This document shows positions 42,888-61,627 of a DNA stretch of 64,000 nucleotides, piece after piece. The notes under the pieces were generated by a model, which worked only from the letters and a program-made list of their open reading frames with translations, had not been told where the DNA came from and did no database searches. The translations under genes were made by a program, and so were the position numbers. Within the stretch, counting starts at the first letter, position 1. The number at the start of each line of letters is the position of its first letter. Source of the DNA: Candidatus Hydrogenedentota bacterium (GTDB taxonomy: Bacteria; Hydrogenedentota; Hydrogenedentia; Hydrogenedentales; JAEUWI01); assembly GCA_016791475.1 (NCBI GenBank), contig JAEUWI010000004.1, positions 1-64,000 of the forward strand, given 5' to 3'.

Positions 42888-43637
42888 ATGCTACGCGCAG
42901 AATCGCTACGTAAAGTCTTTTATCCTCCACGGGGCGAAGCCGTGGAGGCGGTGAAAGGGGCCACCTTCACCGTTGAGCCCGGTGAAGTTTTTGGCCTTCT
43001 GGGTCCGAACGGCGCGGGCAAGACCACCCTCCTGAGGATGCTTGGCACCATCATTTCCCCCACTTCCGGCCATTGCTGGGTGGGTGATGTGCGTACCGAT
43101 CAGGCGAAAGACGATATCCGTAAGGATATTGGGTTCCTCTCGGGAAATACGAAACTCTACGGACGCCTGACGGCAACGGAGGTGCTTCGCTACTTTGGCC
43201 GCCTCTATGGCATGGAAGACGCCTATATCGACTTCCGCATCCAGACCCTCGCGGGCATGCTCGACATGAAGGCCTTTCTCGACCGCCGTTGCGAGGCCCT
43301 CTCCACGGGTCAAACCCAGAAAGTCTCCATTGCCCGGGTAATCCTGCACGACCCGAAGGTTCTGATCCTGGACGAACCCACCATGGGCCTCGATATCATG
43401 ACCAGCCGGGCCATCCTGGACTTCATTCGCGACGCGAAGGGACGGGGCCACAGCATCATCTTCTCCACGCACTACATGACCGAGGCGGAAATGCTCTGTG
43501 ACAGGGTCGGCCTTATTTACAAGGGCGACCTGCTCGCCGTGGGCGCCATGGAAGAAATCTACGCCCGGTCCGGCGCGAATAATTTACAGCAGGCCTTCCT
43601 GAATCTGGTGGGCGAGGAAACGGAACCCGCCGCATGA
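42888..43637 (+). CDS. ABC transporter ATPase (NatA-like)
   Basis: 249 residues. Walker A LGPNGAGKTTLLRML, signature region LSTGQTQKVSIARV (LSxGQ), Walker B VLILDEPTMGLDI and H-loop ISTHYM-like FSTHYMTEAEML. The sequence follows the NatA/CcmA-type ATPases of ABC-2 exporters. An AGGAG lies six bases before the ATG. The permease gene starts in an ATGA overlap. In the 158-base gap upstream, no convincing promoter was found. Confidence 0.92.
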   Translation: MLRAESLRKVFYPPRGEAVEAVKGATFTVEPGEVFGLLGPNGAGKTTLLRMLGTIISPTSGHCWVGDVRTDQAKDDIRKDIGFLSGNTKLYGRLTATEVLRYFGRLYGMEDAYIDFRIQTLAGMLDMKAFLDRRCEALSTGQTQKVSIARVILHDPKVLILDEPTMGLDIMTSRAILDFIRDAKGRGHSIIFSTHYMTEAEMLCDRVGLIYKGDLLAVGAMEEIYARSGANNLQQAFLNLVGEETEPAA

Positions 43638-45676
43638 ACTTTCGCACCGCGAGCACCATTTTCAAAAAAGAAATGCTGGACACCATGCGGGACAAGCGCA
43701 CGCTCCTCATGATGATCGGCGTGCCCATGCTCCTCTATCCCCTGTTGCTCATCGTGGGCTTGCAGGGGCTGCTGATCCAGAGTGCAAGTCTGGACAAGAA
43801 AATATCGCGCGTGGCCCTCCAGACCTCCGAGCCCGAGACGGTGCGGACCTGGCTTTCCGATGTGGAGAAGATCGAGATCGTGGACGTCGCCGACCCCGGC
43901 GCGGCGCTGGAGCGGGGCGACCTCGAAGCCATTGTGTTTATCGAAGGCCCCGTTGCGTCGCTCCTGGGCGAGGGTAAATCGGTGAACGTTGAACTGCGCT
44001 TCGATTCCACCGAGTTCGAGTCCATGGATGCCGTGGGACGGCTCCGCGACGGCCTCGACAAAGACGCCGAGTCCATGCTGGACGTCCGTTTGAAGTCCAT
44101 GGGACTTGAGGCGGACTACATCGAACCCCTCAAGATCGAACGCGAAGACGTATCTCCGCCCGCGAAGACCACCGGGAACGCCCTGGGTACCGTGCTGCCC
44201 ATCCTCATGGTGGTCATGCTTGCGGTGGGTGCGTTCTACCCTGCGGTCGATGTGACCGCGGGCGAAAAAGAGCGGGGCACCTTCGAGACGCTCCTCTCCA
44301 CCCCCGCCAGCAAGCTGGAAATCGTGGCGGGGAAATTCCTGACCGTCTTCCTGCTCGCCATGGCGGCCGGCCTTCTAAATCTGGCGAGCATGGCCGCCAC
44401 CTTTGCCTTCATGGCCAGTCAGGTGCAGCAGAATGTGGATACCGTTATCCCCTTCGAGCTGAAATTCCCGCCGAGCGCCGTTCTTGTTATCTTCCTGATC
44501 ATGATTCCCCTCGCTTTCTTCATTTCCGCACTGATGATGGCCATAGCCGTTTTCGCCCGAAGTTTCAAGGAAGCCCAGAACTACGTCACGCCGTTTCTTA
44601 TCGTCATCACCATGCCCGCCCTCTTCGCGGCGATGCCTGGTGTCAAGCTCAATGCGGTAACCCAGTTCATTCCCGTGGCCAACGCCATTCTGTTGTTTCG
44701 CGATATGATGACCGACAAGGCGGGCCTCCTGGAGGCCTTTCCCGTATTTCTGAGCACCGCCGCATTCGCCGCCCTCTCACTTCTTTTCGCCGCTTGGCTC
44801 TTCCAGCGCGAAGAGGTCATCCTCTCCGAGGAGAAAGGTTTTCCCCTCACCTGGCGGCGGAGCGAATTCCGCCCGCGTGAAACCCTCACCGCGTCCATGG
44901 CCATGGGGCTATTCACGGTTCTGCTGATCGTGCTTTTCACCATCGGAAGCACGGTGCAGTCCTGGCGATTGCTTCCGGGCCTCCTCATCACCGAATGGCT
45001 TCTCCTCTTCGCCCCCATACTCATCCTCCTGGGCTATGGAAAGGTCAATTTTCGCGCCGCGCTGAATCTGCGCCGATTGCCCTGGTGGGGCTTTCTGGGC
45101 TCCCTGAGTATCGGCTTCTTTTCCATCGTGCTCGTCATCCAGCTAAGCTACCTCTTCAACAAGGTCCTCCCGATGCCAAAAGAAATCCAGGAGGCCATGG
45201 GGCAGCTTTTCAGCAGCGATGGCAGCGTTTCACAGCTCCTGTTGCTCCTCTTCGTCGCCGCCGTTTCTCCGGCCATATGCGAAGAGGTGCTCTTCCGCGG
45301 CGCAATCCTCTCGGGACTCCGGCAACGGCTTGGAGCCTGGCCGGCCATCATACTGGTGGGCGCCCTCTTTGGGCTCTTCCATCTGGACGTATTCCGAATT
45401 CCCCCTATCGCGGTGCTGGGTATGGTGCTCACCTATCTCACGGTGCGTACCGGATCCATCTACGCCGCCATGGTCGTTCACCTGATGAACAACAGCTTTG
45501 CCATCCTGCTCACGAGTGAACATATGCCGACCGCCGTCGGCCGGATTCTCCAACTGGAACATTTCGAAGCGAACGGATTGCCCCGCCCCGTGCTCATTAT
45601 TGCCTCACTGGGCTTTATCGCCAGCGTCGGGTTCCTGGAATTTACCGCGCGCCGATTCAGGCCCGTCGGGACCTGA
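43634..45676 (+). CDS. ABC-2 permease (NatB-like) fused to CPBP intramembrane protease
   Basis: 680 residues. Residues 1-395 are the ABC-2/NatB permease: one helix (LLMMIGVPMLLYPLLLIVGL), a large external loop, then helices with the conserved TAGEKERGTFETLLSTPASKLEIV. Residues 425-680 form a CPBP (CAAX protease/Abi) domain with its three active-site motifs ICEEVLFRGAIL, LFGLFHLDVF and AMVVHLMNN. CPBP proteins are intramembrane glutamic-type proteases. In most genomes the two are separate genes, so this is a genuine fusion of exporter and protease. Confidence 0.9.
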   Translation: MNFRTASTIFKKEMLDTMRDKRTLLMMIGVPMLLYPLLLIVGLQGLLIQSASLDKKISRVALQTSEPETVRTWLSDVEKIEIVDVADPGAALERGDLEAIVFIEGPVASLLGEGKSVNVELRFDSTEFESMDAVGRLRDGLDKDAESMLDVRLKSMGLEADYIEPLKIEREDVSPPAKTTGNALGTVLPILMVVMLAVGAFYPAVDVTAGEKERGTFETLLSTPASKLEIVAGKFLTVFLLAMAAGLLNLASMAATFAFMASQVQQNVDTVIPFELKFPPSAVLVIFLIMIPLAFFISALMMAIAVFARSFKEAQNYVTPFLIVITMPALFAAMPGVKLNAVTQFIPVANAILLFRDMMTDKAGLLEAFPVFLSTAAFAALSLLFAAWLFQREEVILSEEKGFPLTWRRSEFRPRETLTASMAMGLFTVLLIVLFTIGSTVQSWRLLPGLLITEWLLLFAPILILLGYGKVNFRAALNLRRLPWWGFLGSLSIGFFSIVLVIQLSYLFNKVLPMPKEIQEAMGQLFSSDGSVSQLLLLLFVAAVSPAICEEVLFRGAILSGLRQRLGAWPAIILVGALFGLFHLDVFRIPPIAVLGMVLTYLTVRTGSIYAAMVVHLMNNSFAILLTSEHMPTAVGRILQLEHFEANGLPRPVLIIASLGFIASVGFLEFTARRFRPVGT

Positions 45677-54905: not shown

Positions 54906-55481
54906 TCAAATCACCAGATCATCTGGTTCCATCACGGGTAATGCCGCCAATTCGGTCGGTACTTCGTCCGGTGCCCAGCTCTCCATATTCAGTCGAGCTA
55001 CAGGACGGTAGGGATACTTGAAATCGACCTTGCCACCGCTGCGATCAATCAGCGCCGCCACGCCAACGATCTCCGCGCCGCGCGCTTCCAAATGCTCTAT
55101 GGTCTTCATGATGGAGCCGCCGGTGGTCACGATGTCCTCCACCACCAGCACGCGGATACCTTTCGGTATGGCGAAACCCCGCTTAACCGCCATCGTGCCG
55201 TCGGGCTCTTTCTCTGCGAATACGCCCCGCACCCCCAGGCTCCGCGCGGTGTCGTAGGCCAGTATGATCCCACCCGTGGCCGGACCCGCCACGAGCTGCA
55301 CATTATCATTGCGAAACAAATCCGCCATGGCCACACACAAAGGCCCCGTGTACTCCGGATACTGAAGCACCCGCGCCGCCTGGAGGAACTGACGCCCGTG
55401 GCGCCCGCTCGCATAGATAAAGTGGCCTTCCAGCAGCGCGCCCGCCTTCTTGAAATAATCAAACACTTCCGCTTCGGTCAT
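54906..55481 (-). CDS. pyrE: Orotate phosphoribosyltransferase
   Basis: 191 residues. The PRPP-binding motif VLVVEDIVTTGGSIMKTI is diagnostic, with LVAGPATGGIILAYDTAR and FAEKEPDGTMAVKRGF upstream. It makes OMP from orotate and PRPP, the fifth step of pyrimidine synthesis. Its ATG overlaps the pyrF stop, so pyrF and pyrE are one operon. Confidence 0.95.
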   Translation of the reverse strand: MTEAEVFDYFKKAGALLEGHFIYASGRHGRQFLQAARVLQYPEYTGPLCVAMADLFRNDNVQLVAGPATGGIILAYDTARSLGVRGVFAEKEPDGTMAVKRGFAIPKGIRVLVVEDIVTTGGSIMKTIEHLEARGAEIVGVAALIDRSGGKVDFKYPYRPVARLNMESWAPDEVPTELAALPVMEPDDLVI

Positions 55482-56170
55482 TGGGCAAGCTCCTCGTGGA
55501 TCAGGCGGACCGCTTCCGCCGGGTTGGCATGGTTAAGAATAGGACGACCCACCACAATCATCGAAGCGCCAGCACGAGCCGCGTCACCCGGGGTCATGAT
55601 GCGCTCCTGATCGTCCTTGGTTGACCAGGCAGGACGGATGCCCGGCGTCACCACGATTGGCTCAGGGCCTACCGCCGCCCGCACCAGTTCGATTTCCTGG
55701 GGCGAACATACGATGCCGTGGGCCCCCGACTCCACCGCCTGCTTCGCCAGACGCGGCACCGCCTCAGCCGCCGTCTCATGGAAACCCACCTCATCTCGAA
55801 GTTGGGCATCGCTGAAGCTGGTGAGCACGGTCACCGCAAGAATCCGCGTAGGCGTCCCCTCCACCGCCTTCCGCGCCGCCGCGATCATAGTGCGCCCGCC
55901 CGAGGCATGAAGCGTGAACAGCCCCACCTCCAGCGCCGCCGCCGCGCTGGCGCTGTGGGCCACCGTATTGGGAATATCATGAAACTTGAGGTCCAGCATA
56001 ACCTGCTTACCCAGCGCCAGCACATCGGCGACAATCGCCGGGCCACAGCGGGTGAACAATTGGGAGCCAATTTTAAACCACGCGCAGGCGCCGCAGGCCG
56101 AAACAATGGCCAGAGCCTCCTCCCGCGTATCGACATCAAGGACAGTAATCAGTTCAGTTTGCTTGGACAA
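55478..56170 (-). CDS. pyrF: Orotidine 5'-phosphate decarboxylase
   Basis: 230 residues. The catalytic core is MLDLKFHDIPNTVAHSA, holding the Lys-Asp network of OMP decarboxylases, followed by GLFTLHASGG, GIVCSPQEIELVR and TPGIRPAW. It converts OMP to UMP. The start is a TTG at 56170 (LSKQTELITVLDVD), eight bases after GGGAAG; the frame to 56326 is much longer than the family and unlike it. An extended -10 promoter lies just upstream. Confidence 0.94.
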   Translation of the reverse strand: MSKQTELITVLDVDTREEALAIVSACGACAWFKIGSQLFTRCGPAIVADVLALGKQVMLDLKFHDIPNTVAHSASAAAALEVGLFTLHASGGRTMIAAARKAVEGTPTRILAVTVLTSFSDAQLRDEVGFHETAAEAVPRLAKQAVESGAHGIVCSPQEIELVRAAVGPEPIVVTPGIRPAWSTKDDQERIMTPGDAARAGASMIVVGRPILNHANPAEAVRLIHEELAQ

Positions 56171-56204
56171 GGTAAGGTCTTCCCGTAGGTTGGTTGGAGC
56201 CGCG

Positions 56205-56213
56205 ATTATAGCA
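56205..56213 (-). promoter_or_regulatory. Extended -10 promoter of pyrFE
   Basis: On the minus strand TG-C-TATAAT (56205-56213) is a perfect extended -10 element, 35 bases before the pyrF TTG. No -35 is obvious, as expected for extended -10 promoters. Confidence 0.65.
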
Positions 56214-56366
56214 TGGGAAGGCGGCTGGGTGCGCGGCGCTGCCCAAATGGGATTGCGGGTCCGCAGCCACACGGAGGAAGCAGGCGTCACAAAAAGACCC
56301 TGGACTGGGCGAAGGGCAATCGCCATCCCACGGCCTATCTCTTTTCTATATCAAAACAGCCCAAGC

Positions 56367-57497
56367 TCAAGTTGAGCCATTGCGGCTTACTACGGACAAT
56401 GTCAAAAGCGACATTCCAAGAAGCAGCAGGTCTGCCAAGTTGATGGACCCGTTCACTGAAGTCAGCTTCGCTCCGGAACAACCGCTACCTTCACCTTCAC
56501 CTTCACCTTCACCTTCACCTTCACCTTCTCCTTCTCCTTCACCACCCGAACCGCTGCCATCGGCCGGGGCCGCGTTGGCCCAACCGAGATCGATCAGGGC
56601 TCCGACCTCGAAGGCGGCGAACTCGCGTCGGACGACACCGGTATCGTAGGTGTGTACAGCCACAGCCTCTACCGACAGCCGGTCCGCATCCCATCGCGAT
56701 AGACTGAGATCGCCCGCGAAGAATATCGGCGCATAAATCGGTGGAAGTGCGCCGCCCCCCTTCGCATAAGCGGCTGCGGCATTGCGTCCGGAAAAGTAGA
56801 GATCGCCGTTTGACAGGTCCCCCAGCGTCCCTAGAAAGGTGGGCGGCTCGCCGCCGAAGAGGTTTTCACCCGCTCCATTGACGATAAACGAATCCCAAAC
56901 GGAGTGTATCCCACCGCCTCGCACCGAGAAACCTGTGGAGGACGCATGGGAAAAAAAGCCCAGGGCGCGGGAAAGCTCTGCAAGAAGTTGACTGCGCAGA
57001 TCGAATTCTTCCGCGTCGGGCTCGCCCGCGCCCCGATTAATGGGGAACCCGAAATCCACGCGGATAGTGACCTCCTCGTAACTTGGGAAGGCCTTCTCCC
57101 CGGTTTGAATTCGTTCGTAGGCCGTCCCGTTGCTGAAGCCTGGCTCGTTTACAAAGAGCGTGTCGGCATACACCGGAACACTGTTTCCACTTAGCCCCGA
57201 GTCTTCAACGAGCACATCCAGTGTCCCTTCAACGTTCAATACGTCCGCAATATAGTCCAATACAGCATGCAAACTCTCCTGGGCAGCCGCGCCAGTATCC
57301 GTATCGTCAAAGCCCACGTCCGAATCGTTGATAATATCCAGATACCAGATGTTGAATGATATGCCGTGCGCTTCCACGGTAGTTGTTGGCGCCATCAAGG
57401 GCGGAAGTTCCGCCACCGCCACCGTACCACTGCAGACTAGAGCAACTGTAAATCCAAAATTGATGATTCCACCAATCAGGCGACCTCGAGACGACAT
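56367..57497 (-). CDS. Secreted metzincin-like protein with lost catalytic motif, Gly-Glu linker and C-terminal anchor
   Basis: 376 residues. Signal peptide IINFGFTVALVCSGTVAVA. Residues 165-205 align with the zinc helix of metzincin-type proteases (LLxELxxALGFFSHASSTGF, then SVWDSFIVNG), but HExxH is replaced by AELSR (173-177), so zinc catalysis should be lost. A (Gly-Glu)n linker encoded by repeated ACCTTC hexamers on the plus strand (56487-56543) leads to SGCSG and a hydrophobic stretch (LADLLLLGMSLLTLSVV) ending in basic R, resembling a C-terminal sorting/anchor tail. The ATG at 57497 has GGGAG eight bases upstream. Confidence 0.78.
   Translation of the reverse strand: MSSRGRLIGGIINFGFTVALVCSGTVAVAELPPLMAPTTTVEAHGISFNIWYLDIINDSDVGFDDTDTGAAAQESLHAVLDYIADVLNVEGTLDVLVEDSGLSGNSVPVYADTLFVNEPGFSNGTAYERIQTGEKAFPSYEEVTIRVDFGFPINRGAGEPDAEEFDLRSQLLAELSRALGFFSHASSTGFSVRGGGIHSVWDSFIVNGAGENLFGGEPPTFLGTLGDLSNGDLYFSGRNAAAAYAKGGGALPPIYAPIFFAGDLSLSRWDADRLSVEAVAVHTYDTGVVRREFAAFEVGALIDLGWANAAPADGSGSGGEGEGEGEGEGEGEGEGEGSGCSGAKLTSVNGSINLADLLLLGMSLLTLSVVSRNGST
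56487..56543. repeat. Hexanucleotide tandem repeat encoding a Gly-Glu linker
   Basis: The plus strand repeats CTTCAC (with a few CTTCTC units), read on the minus strand as GGTGAA or GGAGAA, giving alternating Gly and Glu. Unit length is six, so slippage would change the linker length without shifting frame. Confidence 0.85.
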
Positions 57498-57733
57498 GAT
57501 GTTTTCTCCCTGCTGGAAATTAGTCCGGAACACTCCTCTGCGATATCAAGAGCGTACCACATCAGGCTTGTATCGTCTACGAACCCTTTATAGGAACCGC
57601 TTCGTCGCCGCCGGGGGCAGCAAGACCCCTTTTCCACGCCACAGCGCAAATCAAAAGTTGCGTTTGTATGATTACCGAGTACAAAATTTGGTCAGATGGA
57701 AAGCAAATCCCAATCAAAGGAGATAGATTTCCA

Positions 57734-58438
57734 ATGAAGAAACCAGTCACATTCCAGGGAATAGGTACCGTCAAGTTGGGTCTTTGGGCAGCCTTTCTGG
57801 CACCTGCCATCGTGTTTCAAGTCGGAGCCCAGCCACCAGCCCCCGAAAGCCCGTCCGCCCCGAAGAATTCCGCCGAATCTGGCCAGGACACTTCGTTCCC
57901 CGACGTGGATCTCCACACGCTGGTCCTGCGCGAGCAAGGAGGGCGCGCTGACGGCACATCGGCCCTTTCCGTCCGCGGGACCTCCGATGGTACGGTCGAA
58001 GTGCGTGACGCCTCGGGCAACCTCATCCAGACGTATCCGCTGAGCCGTTTCTCTGTTTCGGGCAAAGTGTCCCGTGAGGCGACCGAGAAGTTGGGCGCAC
58101 GCGTGGAAGTTCTGGAGAAATCGCTCGCGGACCGCAAGATTCAGGAGGAGGAAACCCAGAATCAGGCGCTGGAAGTGGCAAAGGAAGCCGAGGTTAAGGC
58201 CAAAGAAGAGGAAAAGGCAAAGGACATCAAGTGGCAGCAGGATTTCAAGGCGAAGTCCGCGCCTTATCTCGACAGGAAAACCAACTCAAAGGTAAACGCG
58301 GTCAAAATCGACGCCCGCGAAATCCGTGAGGACGGCACTTACCTCTACGAAGGCAAGCCCATGAAACCCGTCCGGCTTTTCAACAAGGAACGCAGCCGGT
58401 ATGAGATGGCGATTCCCGTGCCCGCGCCGGCGGAGTAA
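57734..58438 (+). CDS. Secreted coiled-coil protein of unknown function
   Basis: 234 residues. Signal peptide-like start (TFQGIGTVKLGLWAAFLAPAIVFQVGAQ). A Pro/Ser-rich segment is followed by a beta part (LHTLVLREQGGRADGTSALSVRGTSDGTVEVRDASGN) and a coiled coil rich in Glu, Lys and Ala (VEVLEKSLADRKIQEEETQNQ, KEAEVKAKEEEKAKD). I do not recognise a family. AAGGAGA precedes the ATG at 57734; a longer frame starts at 57668. It converges on the ceramidase-like gene. Confidence 0.78.
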   Translation: MKKPVTFQGIGTVKLGLWAAFLAPAIVFQVGAQPPAPESPSAPKNSAESGQDTSFPDVDLHTLVLREQGGRADGTSALSVRGTSDGTVEVRDASGNLIQTYPLSRFSVSGKVSREATEKLGARVEVLEKSLADRKIQEEETQNQALEVAKEAEVKAKEEEKAKDIKWQQDFKAKSAPYLDRKTNSKVNAVKIDAREIREDGTYLYEGKPMKPVRLFNKERSRYEMAIPVPAPAE

Positions 58439-58450
58439 AGCGCGGACAGG

Positions 58451-59743
58451 CTAGCCCGCACTCAGCTCCTTGAGCAGTCCCGTCACCCCCACCGTAAAGT
58501 CGGCCTCGGCCTGTTCCGTAAACACGGACACGCTGGGCTCGTAGCCCCCTTCCGCAAAGGCAGCCTTCGTGGGCATGTAGAGCAGGGAACCATTCGTCAG
58601 GCCGAAGTAGAAGGTGTTCTTGAAGGGCGAAGCGGCGCGGACATTGAGCGCAATCTCGCAGAATAGTTCGATGGGGGCGGCCCAGATGACGGTGTCGCCG
58701 TTGATGGTGAGGGTGTAAACCGGAACCCGCACAAGGGAATTGCCATCGGACCCCGTCGACGCGAATTCCGCCAGGGTATCGAGCCAGCCCAGCCCGGGCT
58801 TGCGCGGTGTATCGATCAAGATTCGGGTAGTGGCCAGCTTGATATCCCCCGTGGTGGCCTCGATGGTGCTGTTGAGCGCCACGATGGGTGCGCCAAGGGT
58901 TTCGTCGAAACTCTTGATGCGCGGGTCATTGGGATCATTGCCTACCGTAGGATGGGGCGCAATATTGCCCTCGGCGCCGTTGATAAAAAGCATGGGCACA
59001 CCGAGCTTTTCCTCGACATAGCTTGAAGCCCAGCCGGGCGCGTCGCCCGTGATCTGGGTGTTCCCGCCATGCAGGCAGGTGCCGTGGATGGCGTAGTTGG
59101 CGATAAGGCCGATGGGGCTGCCATCGGGACGTTCCAAGCGGATCAACCCGAGCTGGCGATCGGTGGGGCCGTCGGGGTTCTCACCCAGGACGGTCTTGCC
59201 CTCCCGCACTTCACGTCTATTAATGTTCGCCTGGGCCTCGCCGATGGCGATACCGAGCCGGGCGGGTTCCAGTTTCTTGTGGGCTTCCTTGATGCCTTCG
59301 ATCAAGCCCTGGTTTACCTTTTCCCAGTAGACTGTATCCTCAGTCGTTGAACGATCACCCAGCGATCCACCGAAAAAGAGCGTGCCTAATTCCTGCGGAC
59401 CTACATGGGGCGCGGAATGGGTATGTGTCGTGGACCACCAGATCTGTTCGGGTTTGATGCCGGTCTCCCCTTCCAGCCGCGTGCAGAAATCGCGGTAGAA
59501 GGCGGACGAGATCGTGCAGATGTCTGAAGACACGAGGTAGAAGACCGTCGTGCCGTCGTCCATTGCGGCGATGCGATGGTAAATCTTATCGCGGACACCG
59601 GTGGATTGACGCGGCGCATAGCCGTGAAGCCATTGGGGCGTGTCGGGGGTGATGTCCACCTTGACGCAGGCCGCGCGGAACTCAGCGGCGGCGGGGAAGG
59701 TGGCGAGAAGGGTCGCGGTGAGGGCGATGACGAACGCGGGCAT
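58451..59743 (-). CDS. Secreted neutral/alkaline ceramidase-like hydrolase
   Basis: 430 residues with a signal peptide (FVIALTATLLATFPAAAEF). The zinc-site motif THTHSAPHVGP and downstream NYAIHGTCLHG and TGDAPGWASSYVE match the N-terminal domain of neutral ceramidases (pfam04734), which cleave the amide of ceramide. The C-terminal immunoglobulin-like domain of full ceramidases is not evident, so it is a shorter member; substrate not certain. GGGAG six bases before the ATG supports the start. Confidence 0.85.
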   Translation of the reverse strand: MPAFVIALTATLLATFPAAAEFRAACVKVDITPDTPQWLHGYAPRQSTGVRDKIYHRIAAMDDGTTVFYLVSSDICTISSAFYRDFCTRLEGETGIKPEQIWWSTTHTHSAPHVGPQELGTLFFGGSLGDRSTTEDTVYWEKVNQGLIEGIKEAHKKLEPARLGIAIGEAQANINRREVREGKTVLGENPDGPTDRQLGLIRLERPDGSPIGLIANYAIHGTCLHGGNTQITGDAPGWASSYVEEKLGVPMLFINGAEGNIAPHPTVGNDPNDPRIKSFDETLGAPIVALNSTIEATTGDIKLATTRILIDTPRKPGLGWLDTLAEFASTGSDGNSLVRVPVYTLTINGDTVIWAAPIELFCEIALNVRAASPFKNTFYFGLTNGSLLYMPTKAAFAEGGYEPSVSVFTEQAEADFTVGVTGLLKELSAG

Positions 59744-59772
59744 TGGGAACTCCCTTGTTGTAGGTCGGATAG

Positions 59773-59820
59773 GACCGATAGGACGGATACAATGAATCGG
59801 TCCTATCCGTCTTATCGGTC
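59773..59820. repeat. 17-bp inverted repeat (GATAGGAC-type) between ceramidase and pyrD genes
   Basis: GACCGATAGGACGGATA (59773-59789) pairs with 59804-59820 with one mismatch around a 14-base spacer. The units GATAGGAC/GTCCTATC recur directly and inverted, so two alternative folds exist. It is followed by two small GC hairpins (59835-59849 and 59865-59881). The cluster fills the 164-base gap. Confidence 0.65.
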
Positions 59821-59906
59821 ATATCAGCTCTGTGCGCGCCTTCGGCGCGGAAATCACAAGCGGAATCCGCCGAAGGCGGATGCCACATTCCTCGCAGGGT
59901 TCCCAA

Positions 59907-60836
59907 TCACGTCAACCGCATGCCGCCAATCAGGTCGGTGAGATCCTCCACGCCGTGACGCGTGCAGTAATCCTCCAGCCCTTCCACCACTTTTATCGCG
60001 GCATCGGGCTGACGGAAGGAGTAGCTGCCCACGGATACGGCCGTGGCGCCCGCAAGGATAAACTGCATCGCGTCGCCCGCCGTGCAGATGCCGCCCATGC
60101 CGATGATGGGGATTTTGATGGCCTTGGCGCAGTCCCACACCATCTTCACCGCAACAGGGCGGATCGCGGGACCACTCAGGCCGCCGACGATGTTGCTGAG
60201 GATGGGGCGGCGCGTCTCGGGATCGATGCCGATGCCGAGGAGCGTATTGATCATGGAAATGGCGTTCGCACCGGCCTCTTCCGCCGCCAGCGCGGGCTCG
60301 GCGATGTCGATGATGTTCGGTGTAAGCTTGATGAACACAGGAAGGTTGGTCGCGGCCTTGATGGCGCGGGTGTACAACTGGACCTGCTCGGGAATCTGGG
60401 CCACCAGCGTGCAGCCCCGGGCCGTGCGGGCATCGTGCACATTCGGGCAGGAAAGGTTCGCTTCAATGGCGTCCGCCGCGCCTTCTTTGGTCAGGCGCTC
60501 GGCAAGCATGGCGTAGTCCTCAGGACTCTTGCCGTAGATGTTGCCGATGATCGTGCAGCCTTTGTCGCGCAAGAAGGGAGCCTTGTCGCGAAGGTAGGCT
60601 TCGATGCCCACGTTCTGGAGGCCTATGGCGTTCAACATACCCGCGGGCGTCTCCACCAGGCGCGGGGGCTTGTTGCCCGCACGGGGCTCCAGCGAAAGAC
60701 TCTTGGTCGTCACCGCGCCAAGACGGGCGATATCGAAATAGCGATCATATTCCTGGCCGTAGGCAAAGGTCCCGGAACCCACGGTCACCGGGTTCTTCAT
60801 CTTCAGGCCGCCGACGTTGACTTCAAGATTTGGCAT
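59907..60836 (-). CDS. pyrD: Dihydroorotate dehydrogenase, class 1B catalytic subunit
   Basis: 309 residues. Class 1 features: NPVTVGSGTFAYG, GAVTTKSLSLEPRAGNKPPR, NAIGLQNVGIEAY, EANLSCPNVHDAR with the catalytic Cys, and GMGGICTAGDAMQFILAGATAVSVG. It oxidises dihydroorotate to orotate, passing electrons to PyrK. The ATG at 60836 (MPNLEVNVGGL) shares its base with the pyrK stop, so both are co-translated. Confidence 0.95.
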   Translation of the reverse strand: MPNLEVNVGGLKMKNPVTVGSGTFAYGQEYDRYFDIARLGAVTTKSLSLEPRAGNKPPRLVETPAGMLNAIGLQNVGIEAYLRDKAPFLRDKGCTIIGNIYGKSPEDYAMLAERLTKEGAADAIEANLSCPNVHDARTARGCTLVAQIPEQVQLYTRAIKAATNLPVFIKLTPNIIDIAEPALAAEEAGANAISMINTLLGIGIDPETRRPILSNIVGGLSGPAIRPVAVKMVWDCAKAIKIPIIGMGGICTAGDAMQFILAGATAVSVGSYSFRQPDAAIKVVEGLEDYCTRHGVEDLTDLIGGMRLT

Positions 60837-61627
60837 CAGTACGCATCCCACTTGATCAAGGTGCTCTCAAAGACCGGGCCGTCGTAACACACCCGCACCA
60901 TGCGTTCGGCCTCGATCTCCACGTTGGCCTCCACCACGCAGCCCAGACAGACGCCATCGCCGCAGGCCATTTCGGCTTCAAGGGAGGCGAGGCACGAGAT
61001 ACCCAGGGCCTGGCTCACTTCGTGGGTCGCCCGCATCATGGGCATGGGACCGCAGCAGTAGGCCCGGGTGCCGGGGCCGGGATCGAGCTGGCGCAGCACT
61101 TCGGACGCGTAAGCCTTCACGCCTGCCGAACCATCGTCCGTTGCCAGGTGGACCTTGCAGCCCATCTGATGAAAATCGGATTCGCACAGCAGCATCGATT
61201 CAGTTCGCGCCGCGATGATAATCTCCGGCGTGATGCCGAGTTGGCTGATGATCGCCTCGGCCAGCGCGGGAAACGGTGCGATACCGATACCGCCCGCCAC
61301 GAGAATGTGCCGGTTGAAACTGCTGTCCAGCGGGAAGGGCTTTCCCAGCGGCCCCTGAATGCTGATCGTCTGGCCCGGCGTCAATTTGGACATGAGGCGC
61401 GTGCCTTCGCCCTCCACCTTGTACAAAATCGAAACGCTGTCCTTGAAAATCTGTTCGAAGCACATGGGACGCCGCAGGAAGGGATAAAGCCCCTCCTGCA
61501 CTTCCACCATGCAGAACTGGCCGGGTGCGGCTTGCGCGGCGATTTCCGGAGCGTGCAGCACGAGCCGATAGTGCTCGGGGGCCACTTCCATGTGGGCCTT
61601 GATTTCACAAGTTGATACGAGGGGCAT
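60836..61627 (-). CDS. pyrK: Dihydroorotate dehydrogenase electron transfer subunit
   Basis: 263 residues. FAD-binding region YPFLRRPMCFEQIF and LYKVEGEGTRLMSKL, NAD-binding HILVAGGIGIAPFPALAE, and the [2Fe-2S] site MACGDGVCLGCVVEA with a later Cys in VRVCYDGPVF. It carries electrons from PyrD to NAD. It begins two bases after the disA stop. Confidence 0.94.
   Translation of the reverse strand: MPLVSTCEIKAHMEVAPEHYRLVLHAPEIAAQAAPGQFCMVEVQEGLYPFLRRPMCFEQIFKDSVSILYKVEGEGTRLMSKLTPGQTISIQGPLGKPFPLDSSFNRHILVAGGIGIAPFPALAEAIISQLGITPEIIIAARTESMLLCESDFHQMGCKVHLATDDGSAGVKAYASEVLRQLDPGPGTRAYCCGPMPMMRATHEVSQALGISCLASLEAEMACGDGVCLGCVVEANVEIEAERMVRVCYDGPVFESTLIKWDAY

Follow-up and report, generated by a model that had tools for sequence, protein, structure and literature searches.

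The gene at 56367-57497 raises the question of what use a cell may have for a predicted secreted protein that is built like a zinc protease and lacks the residues expected to hold the metal, and of how such a protein would be kept at the cell envelope. It lies on the minus strand of the 64 kb stretch of DNA that was analysed as a whole (the window), which belongs to a Candidatus Hydrogenedentota genome (7.7 Mb, 529 contigs, completeness 96.2%). The reading that we consider probable is that the product is a secreted pseudoenzyme, stopped in the membrane by its C-terminal tail, cut near a cysteine, probably lipidated, and displayed on a stalk in a binding role. The main parts of the gene are as follows.

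56367-57497, minus strand: coding sequence for a predicted secreted pseudo-zincin with Gly-Glu linker and Cys-containing tail (open frame, ATG start, paralogs)
57411-57497, minus strand: predicted Sec signal peptide, residues 1-29, with cleavage after AVA (read by eye)
56571-57410, minus strand: zincin-like domain, approximately residues 30-309 (family profile, AlphaFold2 pLDDT 96.7)
56487-56543, minus strand: tandem array of a hexamer that codes for the (Gly-Glu)9 linker (repeat search)

The frame is open from its ATG to the stop codon, encodes 376 amino acids, and is preceded by a GGGAG-type ribosome-binding sequence that was read by eye. The protein runs from the signal peptide, which would direct it across the inner membrane, through the zincin-like domain and nine Gly-Glu units to a tail of the form GC, hydrophobic stretch, Arg; it found no match above cut-off in Pfam or NCBIfam. 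Its neighbours within 54906-61627 are pyrimidine biosynthesis genes, named by eye as pyrE- and pyrF-like on one side and pyrD- and pyrK-like on the other.

The window protein shares its domain with secreted zinc proteases that look intact and are spread over Candidatus Hydrogenedentota, a family from which it probably descends; a profile search detected the domain in 36 of the phylum's 68 species. Three tandem, intact-looking paralogs are encoded in the same genome (G000:C104:1-8976, L254) and share 37-50% identity with the window protein (54, 49 and 39% over the matched part). Where these paralogs read HEITH or HEVTH, the window protein reads AELSRALG, as the initial annotation had noticed for AELSR, and the change extends to two further positions.

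56967-56981, minus strand: degenerate active site AELSR, residues 173-177 (HExxH in 48 homologs)
56694-56696, minus strand: Arg268 in place of an invariant His, the putative third zinc ligand (conservation in 48 homologs)
56658-56660, minus strand: Ala280 in place of an invariant Met, the putative Met-turn (conservation in 48 homologs)

In the window numbering, H173, H177, H268 and M280 do not vary among 48 of the 50 aligned family members, the later His within S-x-x-H-[WFL] and the Met within VM, while the window copy has A, R, R and A at the four positions. HExxH itself is present in the same proportion of members (48/50), and AELSR departs from the zinc-binding motif of active zincins. The motif Glu is retained, as are 17 of the 25 positions at which conservation is at least 90%; further changes at conserved positions are A109V, G112D, T176S and G263D. 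The other exceptional member, G043:C1083 (L304:245-1735, minus strand), is 32% identical to the window protein, reads QVLTQ for HExxH, and carries Gln, Gln, Phe and Val in place of the four residues. The two inactivations look like independent losses. It is mainly because both inactivated copies have jointly lost the S-x-x-H-W histidine, which is otherwise co-conserved with the motif, that this residue is taken to be the third ligand. Judged by sequence, every predicted metal-binding residue has gone from the window protein and it should be inactive, which bears out the suggestion of a protease-derived, predicted secreted protein without activity.

The class of protease from which it derives is harder to name. 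AlphaFold2 gave the domain a mean pLDDT of 96.7, a confident prediction, when supplied with 50 sequences and 36.7 with four, and the predicted fold had no significant match in the PDB. The canonical metzincin motif is HExxHxxGxxH/D. The active homologs resemble matrixins and other metzincins in their HExxHxxG, in an invariant Met further on, and in weak Matrixin (Peptidase_M10) matches in 19 of the 50 family members, all below gathering scores, but they differ in that no third ligand adjoins the motif; the next conserved His, the putative third ligand, follows 91 residues after the second. The claim of metzincin features around the AELSR motif needs correcting in that the family does not have HExxHxxGxxH. 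A leishmanolysin-like assignment, hinted at by the distant third His, was dropped for want of a significant match in the PDB fold search. Two large, functionally uncharacterised viral proteins match the domain (E ~4e-5), and stromelysin-like viral metalloproteinases match it with non-significant E-values only; scans of the genome_contigs and viral_contigs proteins returned no relatives. The domain is most safely described as a zincin-like family that has no assigned type.

Between the domain and the tail, the hexamer array consists of 9.5 copies with 96% matches, and it is the sole tandem repeat detected within the window. The initial annotation had proposed that a linker encoded in this way could vary in length, and between homologs it does: where present in the zincin family, Gly-Glu arrays comprise 3 to 54 units, and those of the C104 paralogs reach 45 units, with EF-hand-like segments interrupting them. 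Slippage in the hexamer repeat could alter the length of the stalk in-frame, a suggestion based on differences between homologs only. Five-unit Gly-Glu matches number 1,911 in this genome, overlapping ones counted, and when about 85,000 species were scanned for the exact pattern, (GE) repeats followed by GCN turned up at nine loci, all of them labelled Candidatus Hydrogenedentota or Hydrogenedentes. Matches to PF22807 ('TrAA12') were disregarded, as they are located on the GE repeats.

The tail that follows turns out to be widely shared.

56370-56483, minus strand: Cys-containing tail, residues 339-376 (tail profile match, here and in about 36 other proteins of the genome)
56478-56480, minus strand: invariant Cys340 (tail alignment)

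The window tail reads SGCSG...LADLLLLGMSLLTLSVVSRNGST. A profile built from the tails of this genome has 37 matches within it at E <=0.01 (an earlier model at E <=1 gave 45), and the roughly 37 carriers are otherwise mostly unrelated proteins, which answers the initial annotation's proposal to look for other proteins with the same tail and clearly goes against its refuting condition that there be none. Three congeneric genomes outside model building yielded 23, 13 and 19 matches, and the tail was detected in 33 of the 68 Hydrogenedentota species; reversed sequences gave no tail-profile matches. Of 31 matches in loci retrieved from other genomes, 29 lie within three residues of the stop codon, a figure that speaks for position and not for frequency because the loci were picked by the tail search itself. 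The hydrophobic core begins a median of 16 residues past the Cys and is followed by an Arg-rich end with a median net charge of +2. What had been described as a sorting-like tail in the window protein therefore stands as to SGCSG and the hydrophobic stretch and less well as to the basic end, which is weak and has a single Arg. The carriers include proteins with PKD, Ig-like, beta-helix, EF-hand, CarboxypepD_reg and chloroperoxidase-like domains.

With its invariant Cys, hydrophobic helix and basic end, borne C-terminally by many predicted secreted proteins, the tail belongs with the Cys-containing sorting signals as a kind. The window tail has no LPXTG, and among 13 tails scanned none was recognised by the NCBIfam sorting models, with one weak match to VPDSG-CTERM (E 0.055). 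We regard the tail as a genuine modular signal that is not in the catalogues. As such it would allow many surface proteins to be recognised from sequence in a phylum that has received little study, and it makes the hunt for its enzyme concrete.

The closest likeness is with MYXO-CTERM (TIGR03901), where MrtX, a CPBP protease, cleaves the tail of TraA in a Cys-dependent manner (PMC11980579). Both kinds of tail have, in this order, an invariant Cys, a spacer of polar residues, a hydrophobic helix and an end rich in Arg, both occur in dozens of proteins per genome, and the Cys-to-helix spacing of TraA is similar to that seen here (PMC11980579), but the core of the present tails is GDLFLLGLA and the phylum is a different one. 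TIGR03901 matched none of the 13 tails at E up to 1 and nothing in the own-genome scan, where controls stayed silent too; no MrtX-type enzyme was found above cut-off. It is because the layout matches that of the TraA tail that cleavage near Cys340 and display on the stalk are proposed. The tail would halt the protein in the membrane, an intramembrane protease would cut near Cys340, the cysteine would probably be lipidated, and the domain would be tethered to the envelope or cell surface by a Gly-Glu stalk that is acidic and flexible. JDVT-CTERM with MrtJ and Synerg-CTERM with MrtS are NCBIfam-named systems with glutamic-type intramembrane proteases; their signal models match none of the tails, and the matches of the CPBP candidate discussed below to their enzymes stay far under the cut-offs, at 29.9 of 130 and 39 of 75 bits. 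The exosortase systems (PEP-CTERM, XrtH and relatives) share the tripartite form of tail, and both strong and XrtH-like exosortases are encoded in the genome, but the Cys tail has no PEP-type motif.

For the matching sortase-like enzyme that the initial annotation expected, the window's own genome offers four CPBP genes, three exosortase genes and a distant XrtH-like exosortase on contig C16, and neither kind follows the tail distribution decisively. A strong exosortase was rejected, being absent from 15 of 23 tail-rich genomes and present in 8. The presence or absence of CPBP proteases is uninformative as a profile because the family is near-universal in the phylum. The CPBP type represented on contig C81 occurs in nearly every tail-rich genome with a fetched candidate stretch (the single stretch of G022 had no match, and G001, G004, G006, G013 and G014 were left out of the survey), including G035, G018 and G020, and it occurs in tail-poor genomes too. 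In several genomes its neighbours are GNAT acyltransferase genes and genes for an ABC ATPase and an ABC permease.

G000:C81 (L083, L258), L204, L207, L325, L327, L332: conserved GNAT-GNAT-CPBP-ABC cluster

Among curated sorting proteases this CPBP comes nearest to MrtS and MrtJ, with scores that fall far short of the cut-off. This enzyme is our preferred, if unproven, candidate. That the phylum has an anchoring system of its own, in which the Cys tail is processed and lipidated by the GNAT-GNAT-CPBP-ABC cluster and some former proteases serve as binders, with slippage-prone Gly-Glu stalks, is a speculative extension to which we give little credence as yet. The window also holds, at 43634-45676 on the plus strand, a CPBP protease domain fused to an ABC-2 type permease, for which NCBIfam has a family of such kind, ABC_perm_CPBP.

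The tail might instead be a plain single-helix C-terminal membrane anchor that is neither cleaved nor lipidated. A hydrophobic helix followed by Arg would suffice for anchoring, no enzyme tracks the distribution of the tail, and the basic end of the window tail is weak; such an anchor would, however, have no need of the Gly-Cys that is invariant in 29 of 29 aligned tails, nor of the GDLFLLG core that recurs in tails of unrelated proteins across genera, and we think it unlikely. Equally doubtful is the view that the XrtH-like exosortase of the phylum processes the Cys tail. The enzyme is found in 27 of the 33 species that bear the tail and in 23 of the 35 that do not (Fisher p 0.17), and it was not found in the tail-rich G035, G006, G018 and G020, for some of which genome incompleteness may account; on the strength of this lack of significant association and of the four genomes it was set aside as the tail enzyme. 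In its favour are its occurrence in 50 of 68 species, with a copy in the genome of the window itself (G000:C16, L253:3307-4194, minus strand), and the invariant Cys, Arg and His that accompany a long insert in the family (relatives in loci L185-L252). In one of about 35 loci examined, G032:C341, its gene adjoins a tail gene, possibly by chance. Against it, the curated Cys-type tails pair with CPBP proteases (MYXO, PMC11980579; JDVT and Synerg by their NCBIfam names), and an LPxxG...RRR tail of the phylum looks the likelier exosortase substrate.

A further alternative concerns the domain and not the tail, namely that the window gene is a functionless duplicate in recent decay. At about 50% identity to its nearest paralog, the copy has nevertheless kept its frame, signal peptide, fold positions and tail intact, and its losses cluster on the putative metal site. 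This makes recent decay the least probable of the alternatives, even though inactivated copies make up only 2 of the 50 aligned members and no ortholog of the inactivated copy was found in the congeneric genomes searched. A displayed pseudoenzyme remains our preferred reading: a fold that is kept while all predicted metal ligands are lost suggests a protein that probably acts through binding and not through cutting. It could bind something that the active paralogs target, or else a regulator, a polymer or a peptide. The locus offers a clear and repeated case of a predicted secreted protease losing its whole putative metal site, the window copy retaining fold, stalk and anchor.

Two minor observations may be added. 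Zincin-family proteins at L266, L268, L272, L274, L275, L301 and L304 end in a second type of tail, LP[VA]xG..GL followed by a hydrophobic stretch and RRR, which is possibly the substrate of the XrtH-like exosortase and would be a more natural partner for it than the Cys tail; the gene for that enzyme is usually followed by those for a membrane protein partner and an epimerase of the AGE type. Direct repeats, apparently intergenic, lie near 2576-2750 of L253 (C16) and near 600-1060 of L087 (C12), and read (TMDNGQW)n or (STLNSQL)n, depending on the frame.
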